In this document: positions 2,793-54,242 of the stretch, piece after piece
How positions within the stretch are numbered: the first letter of the stretch is position 1
How the letters are laid out: each line of letters starts with the position of its first letter
Position numbers and translations under genes: made by a program
Source: Halorussus vallis
GTDB taxonomy: Archaea > Halobacteriota > Halobacteria > Halobacteriales > Haladaptataceae
NCBI RefSeq assembly: GCF_024138165.1
Contig: NZ_CP100000.1
Location: forward strand, 62,001-126,000
Length of the DNA stretch: 64,000 nucleotides
Direction: 5' to 3'
The notes under the pieces: generated by a model
Database searches by the model: none
The model's input: the letters and a program-made list of their open reading frames with translations, nothing else
Told to the model about the DNA's origin: nothing

Positions 2793-5649
2793 CTGTCACC
2801 GCGTTCGGCGACTCCTCGAACAGCGACGCGAACAGTTTCCGCTGAATCCGGCGGACATGGTCGTAGAACGCCGTGTGGGAGATGTCGAGCATCGACGCGA
2901 CGTCGCGACCCGTCACCTCGCGCTGGGCGTCGAAAAACCCGCTGTGGTAGGCGATCTGGGCGACCTCCAGTTGGCGCTCGGTCAGGTCGTCGAGCAGGCC
3001 CGCTCGGCGCTCCCGCGTGGGTAGCCCGCGGGTCTGCTCGCGCTGGGCGATCAGTTTCGCGCCGTCGTAGGTGTTCGACAGCACCTCGTCGATGGACCGG
3101 ACCGTCACCGAGTCGGGCACGTCCACCGTCAGCGAGAGGCCCGCCGGGGTCGCGCGGAGTCGCCGGAGGACGGCCCCGTGGTCGGCGAGGACTCGCGCGA
3201 CGAAGTCCTCCCGGACGCGGAGGCCGAAGAACCCGGTTTCCTCGGCCCCCCGAATCGGCTTCGCCTCCGAGATGCCCACGAACCCCTCGGCGGCGTCGAC
3301 CACGGCGTCAGGCGCCGCCCCTTCGACTTCGGCCAGGACGAACGTCGTGCCGTCGTCGCTGGCCACGTCCCCCGCCAGGCGAATCGACGCGCCGGTTTCG
3401 CCGGCGAGGCGCGACAGGACCGCGCTCCGGTCGGAGACCTCGTACTCCAGTTCGACGACGGTGTCGCTGCGGAGCGCCTCCTTGCGCTGGACCGCATTGA
3501 TGGCCGACGCCACGGTGTCGCCGAGTTCGCAGAGCACCGACCGGACCATCCCGTCGAACGCGTCCGGGCGAGCGGCGTAGACGGTCAGCGTCCCGAACAG
3601 CACGTCGTCGTACGCGAGCGGAATCGCCAGCACCGACTGGAAGTCCCGGGACACCGCCTCGGCCCGCCACGGTCCCGCCCGGAGGTCGTCGGCGACGTTC
3701 GACACCAGCGCCGCCTCGCGGTCGAGCGCCGCCCGGACGGTCGGTTCGACGCTCGCGTCGTCGCCGCCCGGCCCGAGCGAGACGCCGTCCAGGTACCCCC
3801 GGTCGTCGCCGGCCCACGCCCTCGGCCGGAGGCTCCCGTCGGCCGGCGCGGTTTCGCCGATCCACGCGAACGCGAAGCGGTCGTCGGTCGTCAGTCGGTC
3901 GCAGACGGCCCGCTCGACCTTCTCGCGGGTTTCGGCGCCGACCAGCGCCTGGTCTATCTCCCGGATGAAGGCGTTCACCTGGTTCAACTGCGAGAGCCGC
4001 CGGTTCTGGCGCTGGAGTCGCCGGTCGCGCTCCCGGAGTTCGTCCTCGCGTTCGACCCGGTCGAACGCCGCCTCGGCGGTCGCCGCGAGGAGTTCCGCGA
4101 CCTCCTCGCCGACCTCGTCGAACGCTTCGTCGGCCGCGACGACGAAGACGCCGTGGTCTGCCAGCGGGACCGCGACGTAGCCGTCGAGCGACGCCAGCGG
4201 GTCCTCCCGGTCGGCTCCGCCCGCGAGGTCGGCGTCCGAGCGCGTCTTCGTCTCGTCCTCGATGAACGCGCGGCTGACGGTCGTGGCTCGGTCGAGTCGT
4301 CGCTCCGCCGGGTCGCCGACCGTCGACCGGAACGCCTCGGACGCCGCGGCCGGGACCAGCGCGTTCGCCTCGGCGTCGAAGCGGTAGACGGCCGCCCCGG
4401 TCGGCAGGACCGACTCGGCGTCGGCGACGACCCGCTCGGCTATCTCGTCAGCCGACTCGGCGTAGAGGAGGCTCCGGCTGGTCCGGTGGAGCTGGGTGAG
4501 CGCCCGTTCGCGCTGTTTGCGCTTCGTGATGTCGCGACAGCTGTAGAGGGTGGTGCCGCCCTGAATCGAGACGGTCCGGACGTTGACCAGCAGGGTGTGC
4601 TCGCGGCCCGCCTGGTCGGTCGCCGTACACTCGATGTTCGTGAGCGTCCGCTCGGATTCGAGTCGCTCCCGGTCGAAGAGGTCGTCCCCGAGGAGCGCGT
4701 CGATGGTTCCGAACTCGCGGATCTCCTCGGCGGTGTAGCCGAAGATGAAGTGGACGTTGGGACAGACGTAGGTGAACTCCCCGTCGTCGTCGGTGACCAG
4801 CACCGTGTCGGTCATGTTGTTCAGCGTGACCCGGTGGAGTTCCTCGGACTCGCGGAGTTCGGCTTCGAGACGGACCCGCTCGTCGACCTCGTGTCCCTCG
4901 ACCACGATTCGGTCCGGCCCGTCGGCAAAGCCGACGGGCCGGACCGAGAACTCGAACCGGCGCTCGCGACCCGCGTCGGCGAGGCCGGCCTCGAACGACC
5001 CGTACTCGCCGTCGGCGGCGCGCCGAATCGCGCGGTCGAGCGACCGTCCCGACCCCTCGTCCTCGGCCCACGGGAGGCCCCAGAAGCGCTTGCCGACGAC
5101 GTCGCTCCGGTCCAGTTCGAGGTGGCCGAGCGCGGCCTCGTTGGCCCGGACCACGGTTCCGTCGGCGTCGAGGACCGCGACGAACCGGTCGGGGTCGCCG
5201 AAGAACGCCTCGAACTGGCGGGCCTTCTCGCGGCGGTGTCGGTCGTCGCGTCGCTTCCGGACCGCCGCTCGACACCGATTCGCGAGGTCGGCTTCGGCGT
5301 CGCCGCCGGTCGGCGCGTAGGCGTCGACGCCGGCGGCGACGGCCTCGCCCGCGAGCGACTCGTTCCCGTCCTCGGGCGCCAGCACGAACGCGGTTTGGAC
5401 GCCGCGCGAGCGCAATTCGTCGAGCAGTTCGAGTCCCGTCCCCCCGTCGAGTCGGTGCGCGCTGACCGCGCAGTCGAACTCCTCGGTCGGGTCGGTCAGG
5501 GTCCGCACCGCCCGCTCGAACCCGCCGACCGACCGCGTCGCGGTCGTCTCCCGGCCCGCTAACTCCCGTCGCGCCCGCTCCCGCCAGGGTTCCGGTCCCA
5601 CGAGCAGGACGCGAAGGCCCCCGTCGGAAGGTTCCCGGGTCGTATCCAT
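2785..5649 (-). CDS. Bacterio-opsin activator-like sensor/regulator (pseudo-receiver, PAS, PAS, GAF, GAF, Bat, HTH-10)
   Basis: A 954-residue soluble regulator. Reading order: receiver-like domain (about 10-125), PAS (about 146-255), PAS (about 270-385), GAF-like (about 390-535), a coiled-coil linker, a second GAF (about 565-715), the Bat-associated domain (about 735-885) and a C-terminal HTH-10 DNA-binding domain ending in LDISHTAFYDHVRRIQRKL. The usual phospho-acceptor aspartate appears replaced: the strand reads DCAVSAHRL where active receivers have S-D-Y-R-L. It probably senses small ligands or redox state and controls transcription directly. Targets are unknown. A TATA-like CTTTATCC (about 5672-5680, minus) lies just upstream, suggesting a short leader. 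Confidence 0.88.
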   Translation of the reverse strand: MDTTREPSDGGLRVLLVGPEPWRERARRELAGRETTATRSVGGFERAVRTLTDPTEEFDCAVSAHRLDGGTGLELLDELRSRGVQTAFVLAPEDGNESLAGEAVAAGVDAYAPTGGDAEADLANRCRAAVRKRRDDRHRREKARQFEAFFGDPDRFVAVLDADGTVVRANEAALGHLELDRSDVVGKRFWGLPWAEDEGSGRSLDRAIRRAADGEYGSFEAGLADAGRERRFEFSVRPVGFADGPDRIVVEGHEVDERVRLEAELRESEELHRVTLNNMTDTVLVTDDDGEFTYVCPNVHFIFGYTAEEIREFGTIDALLGDDLFDRERLESERTLTNIECTATDQAGREHTLLVNVRTVSIQGGTTLYSCRDITKRKQRERALTQLHRTSRSLLYAESADEIAERVVADAESVLPTGAAVYRFDAEANALVPAAASEAFRSTVGDPAERRLDRATTVSRAFIEDETKTRSDADLAGGADREDPLASLDGYVAVPLADHGVFVVAADEAFDEVGEEVAELLAATAEAAFDRVEREDELRERDRRLQRQNRRLSQLNQVNAFIREIDQALVGAETREKVERAVCDRLTTDDRFAFAWIGETAPADGSLRPRAWAGDDRGYLDGVSLGPGGDDASVEPTVRAALDREAALVSNVADDLRAGPWRAEAVSRDFQSVLAIPLAYDDVLFGTLTVYAARPDAFDGMVRSVLCELGDTVASAINAVQRKEALRSDTVVELEYEVSDRSAVLSRLAGETGASIRLAGDVASDDGTTFVLAEVEGAAPDAVVDAAEGFVGISEAKPIRGAEETGFFGLRVREDFVARVLADHGAVLRRLRATPAGLSLTVDVPDSVTVRSIDEVLSNTYDGAKLIAQREQTRGLPTRERRAGLLDDLTERQLEVAQIAYHSGFFDAQREVTGRDVASMLDISHTAFYDHVRRIQRKLFASLFEESPNAVTVE

Positions 5650-5763
5650 CGATGGGGGTTTGCGAGGCCGGGGGATAAAGTTTGACGACGGCGTCTCCGG
5701 GCCGGCGCGACCGCGCTCCGTGCCTTCGCGGACGTCCGCCGCGGGGAAGCCGCCGACCCCGGT

Positions 5764-5994
5764 TCACTCCCGCGGGCAGGCTTCGTCGGACGTCGTGTCG
5801 ATGCCGAGCAGCGCGTTGCCGCCGCAGAATCCCGTCGCCGCGTTCTGGAGCAGTCCCGCGCCCGCTATCGCCGCGGTGGCGGCGGTCGCGTTCCGGTCGT
5901 CGAGATACGCCGCCACCGCGACGGCGACCAGCCAGGTCCCCAGGACGCCTCTGACGATTCGGTCGAGACCGCCGACGTTCCGCTCGATTCGCAT
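5764..5994 (-). CDS. DUF2892/YgaP-like small membrane protein
   Basis: A 76-residue protein starting MRIERNVGGLDR. The start at 5994 is chosen because it gives the family N-terminus; an ATG further upstream (6021) adds nine unrelated residues. It has two hydrophobic segments (about 13-32 and 42-60) and the C-terminal GFCGGNALLGIDT, which corresponds to the CPLN...LGINT motif of inner-membrane DUF2892 proteins. The function of standalone members is not established. It is transcribed away from the gene at 6172. Confidence 0.8.
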   Translation of the reverse strand: MRIERNVGGLDRIVRGVLGTWLVAVAVAAYLDDRNATAATAAIAGAGLLQNAATGFCGGNALLGIDTTSDEACPRE

Positions 5995-6081
5995 ACGCGA
6001 CGGTACGGACCGGTTCCCCAAATAGTTACGGAGCTAACCAGTACGGGCCGGGAATGCGGGGCGAAACGGTCGGAACGGTCG

Positions 6082-6106
6082 AGACGGCGTCCGGTAGACG
6101 CCGTCT
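6082..6106. repeat. 10-bp perfect hairpin in divergent intergenic region
   Basis: Arms 6082-6091 and 6097-6106 (AGACGGCGTC and complement) with a 5-nt loop. It lies between the divergent DUF2892 gene and the two-TM gene at 6172, upstream of the TATA-like CATAAATAAAC (6124-6134). A regulatory role is possible but unproven. Confidence 0.4.
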
Positions 6107-6171
6107 TCCGCGGCTTACCCGCCACATAAATAAACGGACGTGTCGCCAAGGGACGAACGGGGTGTCACCCC

Positions 6172-6534
6172 ATGTCCGAAACGAACGAACGCGGGGATGC
6201 CCGCCAGCGAACCGACGACAGCGTGCGCGCTGACGGAGGAACCGCTGACGGACGAACGAACCGCGGTCAGAACCGCCGGCAAGACCGGCGAGGAGACGGA
6301 ACGCGGGGTCGCGAGGATCGCGGCCCCGGCGACCAGTTCGCTCGCGCGTCCATCCGGTGGCTGTTGGCGCTGATCGGCGTCGTCGTCGTGCTGTTCGGCC
6401 TCGGTCAGGCCGTCGGCGTCTCCCTGCTCGGGATGGTCGCCGACGCGCTCGCGTCGCAGACCGGCCGGTGGCTGGTCGTCGCGTTCCTGGGCCTGCTCGT
6501 CATCCTGGCCGCGGCGAAGCTCGACTGGCGATAG
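6172..6534 (+). CDS. Small two-TM membrane protein with charged N-terminus
   Basis: A 120-residue protein with no family I recognise. Residues 1-60 are strongly charged and arginine-rich (Arg, Asp, Gly), unusual for a haloarchaeal protein. Two transmembrane helices follow (about 63-87 and 98-115), and it ends KLDWR. The start codon directly follows a 13-nt palindrome, GGGGTGTCACCCC (6159-6171). A TATA-like box lies at 6124-6134. Topology suggests a membrane anchor with a cytoplasmic basic/acidic tail. Function unknown. Confidence 0.7.
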   Translation: MSETNERGDARQRTDDSVRADGGTADGRTNRGQNRRQDRRGDGTRGREDRGPGDQFARASIRWLLALIGVVVVLFGLGQAVGVSLLGMVADALASQTGRWLVVAFLGLLVILAAAKLDWR

Positions 6535-6604
6535 ACTCCGCGAGCCGTTTCGGCCACACTCACCGTTTCTTCGGCGCGCGCGCCATCGGTCGCGCCGGGT
6601 CGAC

Positions 6605-6964
6605 TCACCGCTCGTCGATGGTGCTCAGGACCCGCTGGGAGAGTTCCACCTCCGAAAGTTCGCCTTTGACGTGCGCGTCCAACCACTCGCGGTCGGCGCG
6701 CCAGGTGCCGCGCTCGCCGCTCTCGTCCCCGTCGTCGATGTCGTAGACGGTCGCGCGCACGTCCCGGAGGTCCCACTCGTCCTGATGGGCGTCCAGCAGG
6801 AGGTTGAGGACCCGGCCGATCTCGCGGTGGGGAACACCCCCGCCGGGGGTCGCGGTTTCGTACTCGACCCGCAGGGTCCGGTCGTCGGCCTCGAACGCCG
6901 TGACGTAAACGCCGTGGCTCATCAGCCGGGATTCGAGTCGCTCGTGAAGGTCCGTCTCGTCCAT
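6605..6964 (-). CDS. Conserved haloarchaeal hypothetical protein
   Basis: A 119-residue soluble acidic protein starting MDETDLHERLESRL. This start is preferred over a 262-residue extension that runs antisense through the neighbouring gene and has low-complexity composition. There are no membrane segments or cysteines. Predicted alpha/beta mix, with LRVEYETATPG and IGRVLNLLLDAH as the most regular parts. It lies 25 bp downstream of the zinc-ribbon membrane protein on the same strand and may share its transcript. No function assigned. Confidence 0.7.
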   Translation of the reverse strand: MDETDLHERLESRLMSHGVYVTAFEADDRTLRVEYETATPGGGVPHREIGRVLNLLLDAHQDEWDLRDVRATVYDIDDGDESGERGTWRADREWLDAHVKGELSEVELSQRVLSTIDER

Positions 6965-6989
6965 GCCGCGACGTACGGACCCCGGGGAC

Positions 6990-8391: not shown

Positions 8392-9609
8392 TCACCGCTC
8401 GTAGCCCAGTTCCTCGCTCACGAGGTCGGCGGCGTTGCGAATCGCCCCGACCGACGAGAGGTAGCCCGCGCCGACGGTCGTCTTCAGCGCCTTCGCCGCC
8501 TTCCCGGTGACGACGGTCGGCCCGACCTGTGCGACCGCGCCGTCGCCGATGGAGACGAGCCATCCCGGCGAGTCGAACGCGAACGGTTCGAGGCGCGGTT
8601 CGAACACGTCGTCGCCGCCCTCGACGAGCGCGGCGATGTTGTCGGCGACCGTGCGCGCCTCGCGGATGGCCGCCTGAGCGCTCGCGGGCACCGCCTCGCC
8701 GTCGGCGTCCACGACCCGCGCAGCGTCGCCGACGACGAAGGTGCCGTCGCCCAGGCGCATCGTGCCGTTGACCGCCGGGCGCTCGCCGTCCAGCGCGTCG
8801 GGGCCGCGGATGCCGCCGGTCCAGACGAACTGGTCGTACGGGACCGTCTCGCCGGATTCGAGTTCGACGGCGTCGGCCGTCGCTTCGGCGACCGCCGCGT
8901 TCGTGCGAACCTCGACGTCACGCGCTTCGAGCGCCTCGTGGACCGCGCGCTGGAACTTCTCCGGGAACGCGGGCGCGACGCTGTCGAGTCGTTCGAGGAC
9001 GGTGACCGTCACGCGGTCTGCGTCTTCCGTTCCAACCCCGTTACTATCCTCTTCCTCCCCCTCGGCACGTGTCTCGCGCTCCTCGCGGGCGAACGCCGCG
9101 AGTTCGCTCGCAACCTGGACGCCCGACAGGCCCGCGCCGCCGACGACGACCCGGCGCTCGCCGGGGGTTTCCAGCACGTCGAGGAAGTCCGACCGGATTC
9201 GGGCGGCGTCGTCCAGCGACTTCAGCGGGGTGGCGTGCTCCTCGACGCCCGGCAAATCGTAGAAGGCGGTTTCGGCGCCGAGGCAGACGGCGGCGTAGTC
9301 GTAGTCGAGTTCCTCGTCGTGCTCGGCGTCGCCACGTCCGCTGGGGGTGAGGGTGGCGACGCCGGCCTCGGGGTCGATGTCGGTCACGCGCGCCGTCCGA
9401 ATCTCGGCGCGGTCGAGCACGTCTTCCAGGTCCACCACGATTTCGTCGGCGATGGACGGGCGGCGGATTGCCCGGTGGACCTCGTGCTGGACGAGGTGGC
9501 GGCCGGTCTGCTCGACGACGACGAGTTCGACGTCGTCGGGGACGGTGCGCTCCAACTTCCGGGCCAGGGTGAGTCCGGCGTAGCCCGCGCCGAGGACAGC
9601 GATTCGCAT
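8392..9609 (-). CDS. NAD(P)/FAD-dependent oxidoreductase, type II NADH dehydrogenase-like
   Basis: A 405-residue flavoprotein. The N-terminal GAGYAGL (about 7-13) is the FAD-binding GxGxxG. A second nucleotide motif, GGAGLSGVQVASE (about 155-167), would bind NADH. A later GDGTFVVGDAARV segment is the typical FAD-contact sequence of this family. By family it oxidises NADH and passes electrons to menaquinone at the inner face of the membrane without pumping protons. The C-terminal region is amphipathic, with no clear transmembrane helix. Sulfide:quinone reductase is a related alternative, but the paired redox cysteines of that family are not seen. Confidence 0.85.
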   Translation of the reverse strand: MRIAVLGAGYAGLTLARKLERTVPDDVELVVVEQTGRHLVQHEVHRAIRRPSIADEIVVDLEDVLDRAEIRTARVTDIDPEAGVATLTPSGRGDAEHDEELDYDYAAVCLGAETAFYDLPGVEEHATPLKSLDDAARIRSDFLDVLETPGERRVVVGGAGLSGVQVASELAAFAREERETRAEGEEEDSNGVGTEDADRVTVTVLERLDSVAPAFPEKFQRAVHEALEARDVEVRTNAAVAEATADAVELESGETVPYDQFVWTGGIRGPDALDGERPAVNGTMRLGDGTFVVGDAARVVDADGEAVPASAQAAIREARTVADNIAALVEGGDDVFEPRLEPFAFDSPGWLVSIGDGAVAQVGPTVVTGKAAKALKTTVGAGYLSSVGAIRNAADLVSEELGYER

Positions 9610-30785: not shown

Positions 30786-31564
30786 CGGCGGTCGGCCGGG
30801 TGCGCTCGGAGGCGTTCGCGGCGTGGCACTCGTTCGTCCGGCGCCGGACTGCGGTGTTCTTCACGTTCTTCTTCCCGGTCATCCTTATCCTCATCTTCGC
30901 GGTACTGGTTCAGACGAATCCTGGCGGCGGCGGCCTGTTCGCCCAGCCGCCGGGCTACTACCTGCCGGGCTACCTCGCGGTCGTGGTGCTGTTCACGCCG
31001 CTGTCGCGGGTCGGTTCGACGGTGGCGCGCCACCGCGAGGGCAACCGCTTCGAGAAGTTGGCGACCACGCCGCTGTCCCGCGCCGAGTGGCTGCTGGCCC
31101 ACACGCTGGTCAACGTCGCCATCATCGGCATCGCGGGACTCATCATCCTCGGCCTGATGGCGCTGGTGACGGGGACGGCCAACCTCGCGCTCGGCCCCGT
31201 GACCCTGGCGCTCGTGGCCGTCTTCGTGGCACTGGCGGTCGCGCTGTTCTGCGGGCTGGGCGCGGTGCTGGGCGGACTGGCCGACTCCCAGGACGGCGTC
31301 ATCGCCGCGAGCAACGCCATCGCGCTCCCGTTGCTCTTCCTCTCGAACACCTTCGTCACGCCCGACATGCTCCCGGCGTGGTTCCGACCCGCCGTGAACC
31401 TCTCGCCGCTGACCTACTTCGCGCGCGGCGTTCGGGAACTGACGTACGTCGACCCGTCGATGGTGGTCGAACCGTTCACCGTCGAAGGAAACCTCGCCGT
31501 TCTCGCGGTCCTCACCGTCGTCTTCTTCGCGGCCGGAGCCTACGCGATTCCGCGGACCGACTGA
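30782..31564 (+). CDS. ABC-2 type transporter permease
   Basis: A 260-residue membrane protein with six helices, including the ABC-2 core (RVGSTVARHREGNRFEKLATTPLSRAEWLLA) and the conserved C-terminal AWFRPAVNLSPLTYFARGVRELTY. It is translationally coupled to the ATPase gene by a 4-bp overlap. The pair resembles DrrAB or NodIJ exporters. The genomic setting next to haem O synthase and CtaM-like genes is conserved as I recall, which hints at a role in oxidase biogenesis, but the substrate is not known. Confidence 0.9.
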   Translation: MTAVGRVRSEAFAAWHSFVRRRTAVFFTFFFPVILILIFAVLVQTNPGGGGLFAQPPGYYLPGYLAVVVLFTPLSRVGSTVARHREGNRFEKLATTPLSRAEWLLAHTLVNVAIIGIAGLIILGLMALVTGTANLALGPVTLALVAVFVALAVALFCGLGAVLGGLADSQDGVIAASNAIALPLLFLSNTFVTPDMLPAWFRPAVNLSPLTYFARGVRELTYVDPSMVVEPFTVEGNLAVLAVLTVVFFAAGAYAIPRTD

Positions 31565-31578
31565 GCGCAGTCGGCCCC

Positions 31579-31613
31579 CGGTTCGGCCGCACTGCGCCGG
31601 CGCGGCCGAACCG
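31579..31613 (+). terminator. 12-bp perfect hairpin after ABC exporter
   Basis: Arms 31579-31590 (CGGTTCGGCCGC) and 31602-31613 are exact complements with an 11-base loop. It starts 15 bp after the permease stop and lies before the next gene's start. Likely a transcript end or processing structure. Confidence 0.45.
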
Positions 31614-31631
31614 ACTATCGACTCGCCGCCC

Positions 31632-31916
31632 GTGGTCCGTCCCGTGCGCTTCGACCCGTTCGACGAGGACGACGACGAGGCGGCCGACCGCGACCTCCGG
31701 CGGTCGATAGGAAAGATATCGCCCGTCACGCTCCGGGAGTTCGTCCTCCTCGCAGTGCTCATCCAGGTCGGCCTGTTCGCCGCCAGCCTCGGCCTCATGC
31801 TCGCGGCGTTCCGCGGCCAGGACGTGTTCGGCGGCGCGCTGGTCGGCATCGGCGCGCTCGCGCTGGCGCTCGCCGCCGCGGTGTACCTGCGCCGGCGCGC
31901 TCGCCGACGGGAGTGA
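31632..31916 (+). CDS. Two-TM small membrane protein (DUF7536-like)
   Basis: A 94-residue protein with an acidic N-terminus (FDEDDDEAADRD), helices at about 37-60 and 66-86, and an Arg-rich end (RRRARRRE). It starts with GTG, either at 31632 or at 31644 (four codons later). Its stop converges on the next gene with 34 bp between them. No function can be read. Confidence 0.7.
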   Translation: MVRPVRFDPFDEDDDEAADRDLRRSIGKISPVTLREFVLLAVLIQVGLFAASLGLMLAAFRGQDVFGGALVGIGALALALAAAVYLRRRARRRE

Positions 31917-31950
31917 GCGTCCCCTCGACTCGTCGCGACGGGACGCCCCG

Positions 31951-32526
31951 TCAGTCGTTCTTCTCGGCGATTCGCGTCCGGACCGAGGCGTACCGGCCTC
32001 CGTCGTCGCTCCCGTCCCGTTCGCTCCCGCCGTCGCCCTCCGGGTGGTTCTCGACTCGGACGCCCTTCAGGCGGAGCATCTCGACGGCCGCGTCGGCGTC
32101 GGCGTCGGTCCGGGCGTCGAGTTCGAGGCGCTCCGAACCGTCCTCGCCGTGCGCGACCCGGAGGGTCCTGTCGGTCCGAGTCGCGGACTCGACGGCGGCG
32201 AGGGCGACGTCTTCGGACCCCGTCGCCTTCCTGGCGACGGCGATAGCGACCACGACGAGAGCCGCAAGGGGAAACAACTGTACGACGGTCACGGACCCGA
32301 CCCCGGACTCGACAAGGGTCGGAATCGCGGGCGCCAGACGCGAGAACGTCGCTATCGTCGTGAGAATCGAGAGGAAGAAGAAGGCCTTGTGCATCCGGTC
32401 GGCCCGGACCCACTTCTCGCGGTACGTCCCGCGGGCGAACCCGACGGGCGACCGCACGACGCGCAGGCGGCCGTCGGCGACCTCGGCGCGACCGCGCGTA
32501 GTTCGGAACGACCACGAATCGCTCAT
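31951..32526 (-). CDS. Two-TM membrane protein with acidic tail
   Basis: A 191-residue protein. Residues 1-45 are basic and polar, two helices follow (about 48-68 and 78-98), then a soluble acidic domain with a small beta-alpha pattern (LRVAHGEDGSERLELDARTDADADAAVEMLRLKGVRV) and a Ser/Asp/Gly tail. It lies between the ABC exporter block and the CtaM-like gene on the minus strand. Not recognised; a role in oxidase assembly is only suggested by its neighbours. Confidence 0.65.
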   Translation of the reverse strand: MSDSWSFRTTRGRAEVADGRLRVVRSPVGFARGTYREKWVRADRMHKAFFFLSILTTIATFSRLAPAIPTLVESGVGSVTVVQLFPLAALVVVAIAVARKATGSEDVALAAVESATRTDRTLRVAHGEDGSERLELDARTDADADAAVEMLRLKGVRVENHPEGDGGSERDGSDDGGRYASVRTRIAEKND

Positions 32527-49487: not shown

Positions 49488-49706
49488 ATGTCGCACGACG
49501 AAGGCACCTACGGACCGGACATGGAACGCGCGAAGACGCTGCGAGAGATCGCCGAGGACGTGCGAGGCCGCGGTGAGGGTTCAGAGAGCGAGCAGGTCGC
49601 CGCGATGCTCTACCGCGTGAGCGACCTCTACGACCCTGACGAGGAGACGACGCCTCGGGACATCTACGTCAACATGCGCGAAATCCTCCGGACGAGGGAG
49701 TCGTAA
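49488..49706 (+). CDS. Conserved acidic helical hypothetical protein
   Basis: A 72-residue protein beginning 2 bp after the Mrp-type stop, so translated from the same mRNA. It is mostly alpha-helical (MERAKTLREIAEDVRG, SEQVAAMLYRVSDLYD, PRDIYVNMREILRTR). No metal-binding cysteines. The tight coupling suggests a partner of the Fe-S carrier, which is only inference. Confidence 0.75.
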   Translation: MSHDEGTYGPDMERAKTLREIAEDVRGRGEGSESEQVAAMLYRVSDLYDPDEETTPRDIYVNMREILRTRES

Positions 49707-49770
49707 TCATCTCTACCGTCTCGTCATCTATTCTTGAGGATTTAGTTCAATTTTAAGAAACCATAAGTAG

Positions 49771-49786
49771 ATGGACTGTAGTCCAT
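49771..49786. promoter_or_regulatory. Palindrome in promoter of AT-rich gene
   Basis: ATGGACT-GT-AGTCCAT, perfect 7-bp arms around 2 bases, about 15 bp downstream of a TATA-like TTTTAAGA (49751-49758). It overlaps the expected transcription start, so repressor binding is plausible. A tiny 18-codon frame (49794-49850) lies between it and the gene. Confidence 0.45.
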
Positions 49787-49859
49787 TCCTCATATGTCCG
49801 GAAAGGAAGAGGAAGGGATTGGAAAATTCATAGATGATTACTATTCTTAATTTGCAGTG

Positions 49860-50759
49860 ATGGGGATATTTGGGACCGTATCTGTGTTCCTTATTGACAA
49901 CTTCCCGGGATCAAGCCAATTGCTAAAAAGAATCGGTATCACAGCAAGTCTCGCAATATTTGGGTTAGTTGCGCTTTGGATAGCAATTCGTGCTTTTGGT
50001 GAATTAGTCGAAAATCACGGTGAAAAGCAATTCCTAACGGAAATTGGATTTGCTGGAATTATTCTCTGTACAGTATCTTTAGCTGTTACAATCCTTGTCC
50101 CTGTCTCAAAATATACGGAAGCTACAGAACTTCTTGGGAAGTCCTTCTTGGTTATGATTTTCATCATCGGATATGCCCGGGTCTACGAAAAGAAACGGTA
50201 TTCGGAAGGACTTCTCTCACCGGACACTGCTCCGCTAGCGTCGGCCTACGCTACGATGGTTCTTTATACATATCTTAGTACAGGCATTGAGCACGCTATC
50301 GTGAATCTTCTGAACTTCCCGATGAATAAGCTAGTGGGGATGTTACTGGCACTGGCACTTTTCCATTTAGGCTTTAGTGAGATTTCTCGCTCTTTCGGGG
50401 CGTTTTTCAGCATCAATCCAACCAAAGATTGGGAGATTAAAGGTATCTGGAGAAAAGAACCCTCTATTCTCATAGGGTCCTTTTCATTGGCTATACTAAC
50501 TGTAGCTGTTCACCTCTTAGCCCGAAGTCCTCCCCAAGGATACTACGCTATTTTTGGTTGGTACTGGAAATCATTCCTCTTCTTCAATTGGGTGATAGCC
50601 TTCTTTGTTATTCTTCTAACACCACTTGTTGAAGCAAAACTAGAAGAAAAGGAGATTGTGCAGGGCACCCTTATGGGAATAGTAGCTTTTTGCTTGATAT
50701 ATACGGTGTCTATTTTGATTTTCTTACATAGAGTTGACAGTCACGTTATTCCGATGTGA
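49860..50759 (+). CDS. AT-rich polytopic membrane protein of unknown function
   Basis: A 299-residue protein with about eight transmembrane helices and short loops (ARVYEKKRYSEG, SINPTKDWEIKG). ATG at 49860; an adjacent GTG at 49857 is equivalent. Its base composition is strikingly low in GC compared with every neighbour, with A/T third positions, and Lys/Ile replace the usual Asp/Glu/Arg bias. This indicates recent acquisition from a low-GC source or a virus/plasmid. No family recognised. The flanks 49707-49859 and 50760-50947 are also AT-rich, so the foreign segment is probably about 1.2 kb. Confidence 0.72.
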   Translation: MGIFGTVSVFLIDNFPGSSQLLKRIGITASLAIFGLVALWIAIRAFGELVENHGEKQFLTEIGFAGIILCTVSLAVTILVPVSKYTEATELLGKSFLVMIFIIGYARVYEKKRYSEGLLSPDTAPLASAYATMVLYTYLSTGIEHAIVNLLNFPMNKLVGMLLALALFHLGFSEISRSFGAFFSINPTKDWEIKGIWRKEPSILIGSFSLAILTVAVHLLARSPPQGYYAIFGWYWKSFLFFNWVIAFFVILLTPLVEAKLEEKEIVQGTLMGIVAFCLIYTVSILIFLHRVDSHVIPM

Positions 50760-50947
50760 CGACCAACCCCTTTCTTACAATCTATCGTTGGGTGGCAGAT
50801 TATCTGCTCATTGCCACAGTTAATCTTCAAGAATTCCGCCGTTTCCCGGTGTCTGTCATGAACATTCCTTGTTAATCTATAGCAAAGGCTTTACTGACTC
50901 CCCCACCAATTTCGAACCACTGGGCCTAACGGCCGTGAGCTACGAAT

Positions 50948-52846
50948 ATGACTGACGACGAACTCATCTGGCGAATCGCGGGCGGTTCCGGCGACGGAAT
51001 CGACTCGACGAGCCAGAACTTCGCGAAGGCCCTGATGCGGTCGGGGCTGAACGTCTTCACGCATCGTCACTACCCGTCGCGCATCCGAGGCGGCCACACG
51101 TACGTGGAAATTCGGGCCAGCGATAAGCCCGTAAAGTCGCGCGGGGACAACTACAACTTCCTGCTGGCGCTGGGCGACAGTTTCGCCCGGAACCCCCAGG
51201 AGGAAGCTTACTACGGCAACGAGGAGATCAAGCCGCTGTCGGAGAACCTCGACGAACTCCGCGAAGGCGGGGTCATCGTCTACGACGCCGGCCTGCTCGA
51301 CACCGACGAGATCGAGAACTTCGACGAGCGCGTCGAGGAGAACGACTGGCACGTCTACGACCTCGACCTTCGTGGGCTGGCGAAGGAACACGGTCGGGAG
51401 GTCATGCGGAACACCGCGGGCGTCGGCGCGACCGCCGCCCTGCTGGACATGGACCTCCAGTACATCGAGGAGTTGATGGAGGACGCGATGAGCGGCGACG
51501 TGCTCGAAGCGAACCTCCAGATCCTCGAGGAGGCCTACGAGTCAGTGAAGAACGACTACGACCACACCCACGACCTGCGCGCCCCGACCGGCGACCACGA
51601 CGAGGAGCAGGTCCTCGTCTCCGGTTCGCACGGCATCTCGTACGGCGCGCTCGACGAGGGCTGTCGGTTCATCGCGGGCTACCCGATGACCCCGTGGACC
51701 GACGTGTTCACCATCATGACCCAGCACCTGCCGGACATGGGCGGCATCTCCGAGCAGGTCGAGGACGAGATCGCCGCCGCGTCGCTCGCCATCGGCGCGA
51801 GCCACGCGGGCGCGAAGGCGATGTCTGGGTCCTCGGGCGGCGGGTTCGCGCTGATGTCCGAACCGCTCGGCCTCGCCGAGATGACCGAGACGCCCATCGT
51901 GCTCGTCGAGTCGATGCGCGCCGGCGGTTCGACCGGGATGCCGACCAAGCCCGAGCAGGGCGACCTCGAACACGTCCTGTACACGAGCCAGGGCGACTCC
52001 AACCGCGTGGTGTTCGCGCCGGGCGACCCCGCGGAGTGTTACGAACAGACCCGCAAGGCGTTCGAGATCGCCTACAACTACCAGATTCCGTCCATCGTCC
52101 TGTACGACCAGAAGCTCTCGGGCGGCCACCAGACAATTCCGGAGGCCGTCTTCGACGAGGAGCCGAACCCGGACCTCGGCAGCATCGTCACCGAGCAGGA
52201 CCTCGAGGAGGCCGCCCACGAGGCCGGCCGATTCAAGCGGTACATGTACGACGCCGAGGGCGACCGGGAGGGCGTCAGCCCGCGGTCGCTGCCCGGCCAG
52301 AAGGGCGGTAACTACCTCGCGTCCGGCAACGAGCACAACGAGGTCGGCCACATCAGCGAGGACCCGACGAACCGCGTCCTCCAGATGGAGCGTCGGATGG
52401 CCAAGCTCGACTCCATCCGCGAGGAGCTCGACGAGACCACCGACCACCAGCCGGTCTACGGTCCGGAGGACGCCGACTACGGCATCCTCAGCTTCGGTTC
52501 GACGAAGGGCGTCGTCGAGGAGGCCGTCGACATCCTCAACGAGGAGGGCCACTCGGTGAAGGCGATGAACGTCAGCGACATCATGCCGTTCGCCAAGGCC
52601 GACGTGACCGAGTTCCTCGAAGGCGTCGACGAGGCGCTGGTCGTCGAGATGAACGCGACCGCGCAGTTCCGCCGGCACATCCAGGGCCAGCTCGGCCGCT
52701 TCGGCGAGAAGCTGTACAGCCTGCTCAAGTACGACGGCAACCCGTTCGAGCCGTCCGAAGTCGTCTCCGGCTTCCAGACTCACCTCGAAGGGAACGCCGA
52801 CGTGAGCGACTACAACGTCCGCATCGAATCCGCGACGGGTGACTAA
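50948..52846 (+). CDS. porA: 2-oxoacid:ferredoxin oxidoreductase, fused gamma-alpha subunit (pyruvate type likely)
   Basis: A 632-residue cytoplasmic subunit. The N-terminal gamma domain (about 5-185; IAGGSGDGIDSTSQNFAKALM) is fused to the alpha pyrimidine-binding domain (from about 200; YPMTPWTDVFTIMTQHLPDMGG) and the transketolase C-terminal-like domain. The length matches haloarchaeal pyruvate:ferredoxin oxidoreductase rather than the shorter 2-oxoglutarate enzyme; this choice rests on remembered sizes. It oxidises pyruvate to acetyl-CoA with ferredoxin. The beta subunit gene follows after 2 bp. Confidence 0.88.
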   Translation: MTDDELIWRIAGGSGDGIDSTSQNFAKALMRSGLNVFTHRHYPSRIRGGHTYVEIRASDKPVKSRGDNYNFLLALGDSFARNPQEEAYYGNEEIKPLSENLDELREGGVIVYDAGLLDTDEIENFDERVEENDWHVYDLDLRGLAKEHGREVMRNTAGVGATAALLDMDLQYIEELMEDAMSGDVLEANLQILEEAYESVKNDYDHTHDLRAPTGDHDEEQVLVSGSHGISYGALDEGCRFIAGYPMTPWTDVFTIMTQHLPDMGGISEQVEDEIAAASLAIGASHAGAKAMSGSSGGGFALMSEPLGLAEMTETPIVLVESMRAGGSTGMPTKPEQGDLEHVLYTSQGDSNRVVFAPGDPAECYEQTRKAFEIAYNYQIPSIVLYDQKLSGGHQTIPEAVFDEEPNPDLGSIVTEQDLEEAAHEAGRFKRYMYDAEGDREGVSPRSLPGQKGGNYLASGNEHNEVGHISEDPTNRVLQMERRMAKLDSIREELDETTDHQPVYGPEDADYGILSFGSTKGVVEEAVDILNEEGHSVKAMNVSDIMPFAKADVTEFLEGVDEALVVEMNATAQFRRHIQGQLGRFGEKLYSLLKYDGNPFEPSEVVSGFQTHLEGNADVSDYNVRIESATGD

Positions 52847-53966: not shown

Positions 53967-54242
53967 TCAATTTCCGTCGGGACCGAGCGGCGCGGCGCTC
54001 CTGTCGTCGCCACCTTCTCCGCCTTCGCCTCCTCCACCTTCTCCACCCTCGCCTCCTCCTCCGCCTTCGCCACCTTCTCCGCCCTCCCCACCTTCGCCTC
54101 CTCCACCCTCACCGCCTTCTCCGCCTTCTCCGCCTTCGCCGCCCTCGCCGCCACCGCCCGGCATCCCGCACCCCGCGAGGGCCGTGGCTCCGACCGTGAG
54201 TGCGCCGCACAGGAACCGTCGCCGCGACTTGTTACGACTCAT
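53967..54242 (-). CDS. Tat lipoprotein with Gly-Gly-Glu repeats
   Basis: A 91-residue protein. N-terminal SRRRFLCGALTVGATALAGC holds a twin-arginine motif and a lipobox ending at Cys25. The mature part is almost only Gly and Glu in GGE or GGGGE repeats (about 29-78), ending DDRSAAPLGPDGN. It would sit outside the membrane on a lipid anchor as a flexible acidic polymer. The DNA is a near-tandem repeat with period 3-9 and may vary between strains. Function unknown; no neighbour explains it. Confidence 0.65.
   Translation of the reverse strand: MSRNKSRRRFLCGALTVGATALAGCGMPGGGGEGGEGGEGGEGGEGGGGEGGEGGEGGEGGGGGEGGEGGGGEGGEGGDDRSAAPLGPDGN

Follow-up and report, generated by a model that had tools for sequence, protein, structure and literature searches.

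Rare and fast-evolving genes for membrane proteins, which are enriched in the vicinity of mobile elements, form a general class known as archaeal "dark matter islands", as outlined in the pertinent part of PMC4158269. A closer counterpart of the gene considered here is located in Haloarcula argentinensis DSM 12282 (locus L062), where the sequences flanking an AT-rich cargo gene are 92.5% and 88% identical to those of the pleolipovirus HHPV3, and the cargo gene occupies the place of the HHPV3 putative proteins 8 to 10. The window, which is the whole 64,000-nucleotide stretch of Halorussus vallis DNA that was analyzed, contains one AT-rich island with a related gene.

The AT-rich segment upstream of porA

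The features of the island and its flanks are as follows.

49488 to 49706, plus strand: left flank, a conserved gene for 72 aa that follows mrp (alignment of nucleotide sequences from 15 Halorussus genomes)
49707 to 50850, no strand assigned: acquired AT-rich segment, which replaced about 4.6 kb with the p310 and PKD genes (flank alignments, synteny, composition)
49751 to 49759, plus strand: TATA-like box TTTTAAGAA (direct sequence reading; consensus resemblance only)
49771 to 49786, no strand assigned: palindrome ATGGACTGTAGTCCAT over the presumed transcription start, with perfect 7-bp arms and a GT center
49794 to 49850, plus strand: true 5' end of the membrane-protein gene, 18 codons MSGKEEEGIGKFIDDYYS plus TAA, aligning with the N-termini of 23 homologues
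49848 to 49850, plus strand: in-frame TAA, codon 19, inside the conserved N-terminal motif of the family (translation, profile match, homologues)
49857 to 50759, plus strand: remainder of the same frame, 300 codons, polytopic membrane protein, from GTG 49857 (or ATG 49860) to TGA 50757-50759
50852 to 50947, plus strand: genus-conserved porA upstream region (catgaacattcctt...gcaaaggctttact), right flank, outside the island (flank alignment)
50948 to 52846, plus strand: porA, right flank, 78 to 92% identity in 27 relatives

The GC content of positions 49708 to 50947 was 42.3%, compared to a mean of 66.6% (sd 4.1) across all 1,240-bp stretches of the 64-kb window, and the lowest value for a stretch of this length outside the island was 60.4%. 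The first-pass annotation was thus right in calling this the only clearly low-GC segment. At the third codon position, GC was 41% in the island gene versus 93% in the neighboring porA. The comparison with relatives that had been advised for locating the insertion borders yielded both of them. The left border is sharp, with homology ending at the stop codon of the 72-aa gene, for which no Pfam match was found, and homology restarts in the porA promoter region at about 50830 to 50852, an approximate right border that leaves about 1.14 kb of foreign DNA in the slot.

The window locus itself is not a provirus. No integrase, NTPase, DUF7845 protein or other provirus hallmark was found within the window at a cutoff of E < 1e-4, nor was there a tRNA near the island, a tRNA att site, an att repeat or a provirus remnant at the locus, in agreement with the earlier remark that no integrase or tRNA scar is visible. 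A 13-bp imperfect inverted pair at 49730-49742/50822-50834 was considered as the ends of an element and discarded, being at about the chance level in an AT-rich stretch by a rough estimate. Beyond porA, the minus strand of the window contains an ORF (53967 to 54242) with a lipobox-like start (MSRNKSRRRFLCGALTVGATALAGCGMPGGGGEGGEGG...) followed by long Gly/Glu repeats of low complexity.

In the relatives, the 72-aa gene and porA are separated by about 4.6 to 4.9 kb with a surface-protein pair encoded by two minus-strand genes, one for a protein of about 310 aa with a hydrophobic C-terminus (p310), the other for its partner of about 1,120 to 1,170 aa with a PKD domain. In 24 of 28 Haladaptataceae genomes, other genera included, porA has the PKD gene as its immediate upstream neighbor, which indicates that the p310/PKD arrangement is ancestral. 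An orthologue of p310 was found nowhere in the window genome, and neither was one of the PKD gene, with only a weak PKD-domain match. Those 24 genomes have another gene pair at this place, which strongly supports the proposal that the island was acquired between an Fe-S carrier gene and porA. The replacement had escaped notice, and the event, judged from synteny, is to be seen as a swap of a gene pair instead of a plain insertion.

The slot also differs in other genomes. G007 contains a membrane gene of 39% GC for 264 aa next to the last 43 codons of p310, and G026, from another genus, a region of 41% GC with a frameshifted membrane gene and about 41 retained p310 codons; in G012, which is 62% complete, a gene for a PQQ-type propeller and a lipoprotein gene occupy the slot. 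The AT-rich slot genes of the window genome, G007 and G026 are mutually unrelated by sequence, which rules them out as homologues and indicates that the slot was refilled independently.

A PKD gene upstream of porA is missing from the loci L051 (6396 to 7187), L150 (3388 to 4600) and L140 (3388 to 4887) of these three exceptional Haladaptataceae genomes. Two of these loci hold unrelated AT-rich membrane genes, one of them frameshifted, and about 41 to 43 C-terminal codons of p310 are left with similar break points. A broad reading would make the mrp-porA slot a site of recurrent exchange, at which p310/PKD as a possible virus receptor would have been swapped repeatedly for unrelated, AT-rich, virus-borne immunity membrane proteins, with resistance by receptor loss plus exclusion and a subsequent decay of the incoming gene; we regard this as very doubtful.

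One membrane-protein gene interrupted by a TAA

A single frame of 321 codons with one TAA inside leads from ATG 49794 to TGA 50757-50759 and reads MSGKEEEGIGKFIDDYYS, stop, FAVMGIFGTVSVFL and onward. The 18-codon and the 300-codon frames are in phase, only the TAA separates them, and no further stop or frameshift occurs in the 300 codons that follow. The N-termini of homologues read, for instance, FLSDHYQQFAIMGIFATVSAF, FLDEFYPQFAIMGIFGTVTLV and FLEENQSKFAIMGIFGTVSLF, and all 23 aligned homologues read straight through the stop position, where they possess Q, K, L or I. The genome, when searched with a profile, gave a match at 111800 to 112726 of contig C1 with "1 TAA" inside and an E value of 2.4e-105, the window sequence itself being among the members of this profile. 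For searches and fold prediction, codon 19 was read as X or Q and the sequence was otherwise unaltered.

The homologous N-termini and the profile match across the stop indicate that a nonsense codon divides what is a single gene into the 18-codon frame and the frame of the eight-helix protein. The "tiny 18-codon frame", listed before as a separate part of the unit, is in frame with the membrane gene and matches the N-termini of the homologues. Of the "one polytopic protein" in the first-pass annotation, the long membrane-protein frame remains, but the frame given for it lacks the true N-terminus, with a start at 49857 inside predicted helix 1.

About seven to nine membrane helices are predicted from the AlphaFold2 model and hydropathy. 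The model, which is confident only up to about residue 130, places helices at residues 17-36, 42-73, 80-106, 108-138, 146-173, 177-205, 224-242, 258-284 and 288-313. Structure prediction had been recommended for this protein; it gave this multi-helix model, and fold searches gave no significant match, since Foldseek against PDB and BFVD reached best E values of 0.36 and 0.03 with TM-scores of 0.18 to 0.39 among the top matches, for a model that is weak past residue 130. Codon 19, with the stop, is among the first positions of predicted helix 1 (17-36) and belongs to the region that is best conserved in the family. Normal translation would yield only an 18-residue peptide. The window gene is most likely a recently inactivated pseudogene, and its product in the window genome is probably not made, or made truncated. 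Nothing calls for invoking recoding of the TAA.

The palindrome lies 24 nt downstream of the TATA-like box over the expected transcription start and may, on weak evidence, be a putative repressor site. The 64 kb contain 104 cases of perfect 7-bp inverted arms with a gap of 0 to 4 nt, and when leaders of the same length were shuffled, about 2.4% of them had such arms. An inverted repeat with arms of at least 7 bp was found upstream of none of the 18 other family members examined. The gene was therefore not credited with an "own operator", as had been suggested, and a conserved operator was rejected for the same reasons.

The protein family and its association with proviruses

Homologues of the window protein, for which a search had been advised, were found by profile, while the databases of named families gave no match. 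The window protein itself matched nothing in Pfam, NCBIfam, PHROGs and PADLOC beyond sub-threshold noise, its homologues had no convincing match in Pfam, NCBIfam or PHROGs, and the PADLOC-DB defence models matched neither the window protein nor 23 homologues. A pattern scan of GTDB contigs with the single window protein revealed no homologue, and none was confirmed in viral contigs. There was no tblastn match in phage records, so the isolated viruses searched carry no detectable copy.

Common to the family (alignment A2) is the N-terminal motif F-x6-[LQKI]-F-x3-G-[VI]-F before and in helix 1, with F12, F20, G24 and F26 invariant or nearly so. The window gene fits the motif if codon 19 is read through; it shares the multiple membrane helices with the family and lacks the uninterrupted frame (TAA 49848-49850). 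Past the N-terminal motif, length and sequence vary among the members. The family is AT-rich, with 34 to 46% GC for most members outside Halorussus, and scattered through the haloarchaea; a profile built from the first matches detected it in 37 of the 392 genomes of the order. The closest homologues, at 24 to 29% identity, come from proviruses of H. argentinensis and Natronoglomus mannanivorans and from one solitary AT-rich island. The tree places the window protein, with a support of 94, together with the provirus copies L080 and L011 and with L003, which is a solitary AT-rich island. Other solitary copies include L063, L108 and L120. L108 was rejected as the same locus because its Mrp is only 48% identical to that of the window and the stretch yielded no porA. 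In the window genome, contig C2 contains two identical GC-rich paralogues at 31453-32073 and 546577-547197, near both ends and with matching neighboring genes, which is possibly an assembly overlap of a circular replicon.

Integrase or betapleolipovirus genes were present near 13 of 22 homologous loci, 0 of 19 control Halorussus loci and not at the window locus, counts that describe the context and are no independent statistical test, since the hallmark set was partly drawn from the same loci. Genes for an HHPV3/HHPV4-type NTPase and a DUF7845 protein flank the copies in L062, L064, L112 and L119, an NTPase gene is near those in L110, L111 and L114, and integrases are near those in L065, L101, L102, L107, L109, L110, L111, L112 and L114. 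This association supports the earlier suggestion of a virus-derived membrane protein. Positions 8743 to 9910 of L062, compared to 5488 to 6972 of HHPV3 (L125), suggest that betapleolipoviruses possess an AT-rich slot for cargo, with the DUF7845 gene on one side, the HHPV3 ORF7-type gene on the other and contents that differ by virus; L064, L112 and L119 carry a family member there.

The copy in L111, with provirus genes, and the solitary copy in L117, beside a tRNA-Leu, are 84% identical in DNA over 695 bp in hosts from two different haloarchaeal families, and the solitary L104 copy is adjoined by a 39-residue remnant of a betapleolipovirus gene. This indicates that solitary copies can be leftovers of such elements. 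Partial tRNA-Leu-like repeats are located near 12.1 to 12.3 kb of L111.

Origin, fate and known relatives of the window gene

We consider it likely that an acquired cargo gene of the provirus type replaced p310/PKD and is now broken by the TAA. In an ancestor of the present Halorussus, an AT-rich gene of the kind carried by haloarchaeal proviruses or integrative elements, encoding a polytopic membrane protein, was gained horizontally and displaced the pair that normally separates the 72-aa gene from porA, the likely route being recombination in or near the conserved flanks, where an integrase and an att site were not seen. The gene would also have acquired the one TAA at codon 19. Intact members may act in the host membrane on behalf of the mobile element, and we tentatively suggest superinfection exclusion or immunity as the most plausible role, as might be expected for a small, fast-evolving, multi-helix protein that proviruses carry as a lone gene with no conserved partner. 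"Defence or immunity", as the first-pass annotation worded it, received no direct support, PADLOC being negative, and stays a conjecture.

The gene may nevertheless work if ribosomes finish the 18-codon leader at the TAA and restart 6 nt downstream at GTG 49857/ATG 49860, so that the leader becomes a short upstream frame to which a membrane protein with a slightly trimmed N-terminus is coupled. Haloarchaea can restart after termination, as PMC6728339 documents for Haloferax volcanii, where one of the gene pairs concerned has 10 nt between its genes. The 300 codons remain open, and since about 4.2% of random base changes create a stop, more than one would be expected after prolonged neutral decay. 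The restarted product would, however, be deprived of the conserved F12 and F20 and of the first part of predicted helix 1 or, by hydropathy, of this helix; a Shine-Dalgarno-like site is not apparent, and 23 of 23 homologues read through, which makes a functional restart unlikely. Alternatively, the TAA may be a sequencing or assembly error in an intact, functional gene, as it is a single base change away from CAA, AAA or TTA for the Q, K and L of the homologues and the rest of the frame is open. An assembly in 5 contigs with 99.7% completeness speaks against this, and the broken membrane gene in the G026 slot makes decay plausible, so that an error is very improbable.

Two further alternatives concern the origin of the gene. 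A stand-alone host gene for defence or membrane stress, for instance an abortive-infection membrane effector, would agree with the sporadic, AT-rich and sometimes solitary copies, and shorter GC-rich relatives, which most of the examined Halorussus genomes retain on large secondary replicons, suggest a use for the host. Mobile elements, however, harbor or adjoin most of the copies, a conserved partner gene was not seen, and PADLOC was negative for 24 members; we judge such an origin quite unlikely. An ancestral low-GC gene lost in the relatives has nothing in its favor and next to no probability: orthologues at the locus were looked for and none of the relatives has the gene there, so that synteny already contradicts it, and the p310/PKD arrangement is common to other genera of the family.

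These results assign an anonymous AT-rich ORF to an undescribed family of haloarchaeal membrane proteins, which pleolipovirus-type proviruses carry. The window copy is probably dead, and the interest lies in the family, of which intact members exist for trial in laboratory hosts, and in the recurrently refilled slot. Independent swaps of a surface-protein pair for unrelated AT-rich membrane genes in one chromosomal slot offer a natural experiment in virus-host gene exchange.

Compared to known systems, the family resembles the "dark matter islands" in its rare, fast-evolving membrane-protein genes near mobile elements; these islands are a general class, and the pertinent part of PMC4158269 does not name this family. 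The paralogues on secondary replicons of Halorussus, such as WP_248652346.1 of H. limi, share the N-terminal motif and the first half of the protein but differ in having about 65% GC, about 235 aa and a presence in most Halorussus genomes examined, with two identical copies on C2 of the window genome. WP_012660144.1, a hypothetical protein from pHLAC01 of Halorubrum lacusprofundi, exhibits the family motif (NYQLFAVMGVFGAISIYL), 41% GC and a location on a secondary replicon, but is intact with 270 aa and about 30% identical over the N-terminal 86 residues. The accessory, moron-type gene of the HHPV3-like betapleolipovirus provirus in H. argentinensis DSM 12282 (L062/L123) is likewise AT-rich and encodes a polytopic homologue that shares the N-terminal motif and is 28% identical. 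In contrast to the window gene, it resides inside a provirus with NTPase and DUF7845 genes and has an intact frame of 333 aa; like the window gene, it stands as one gene in a slot flanked by conserved blocks, into which it was swapped.
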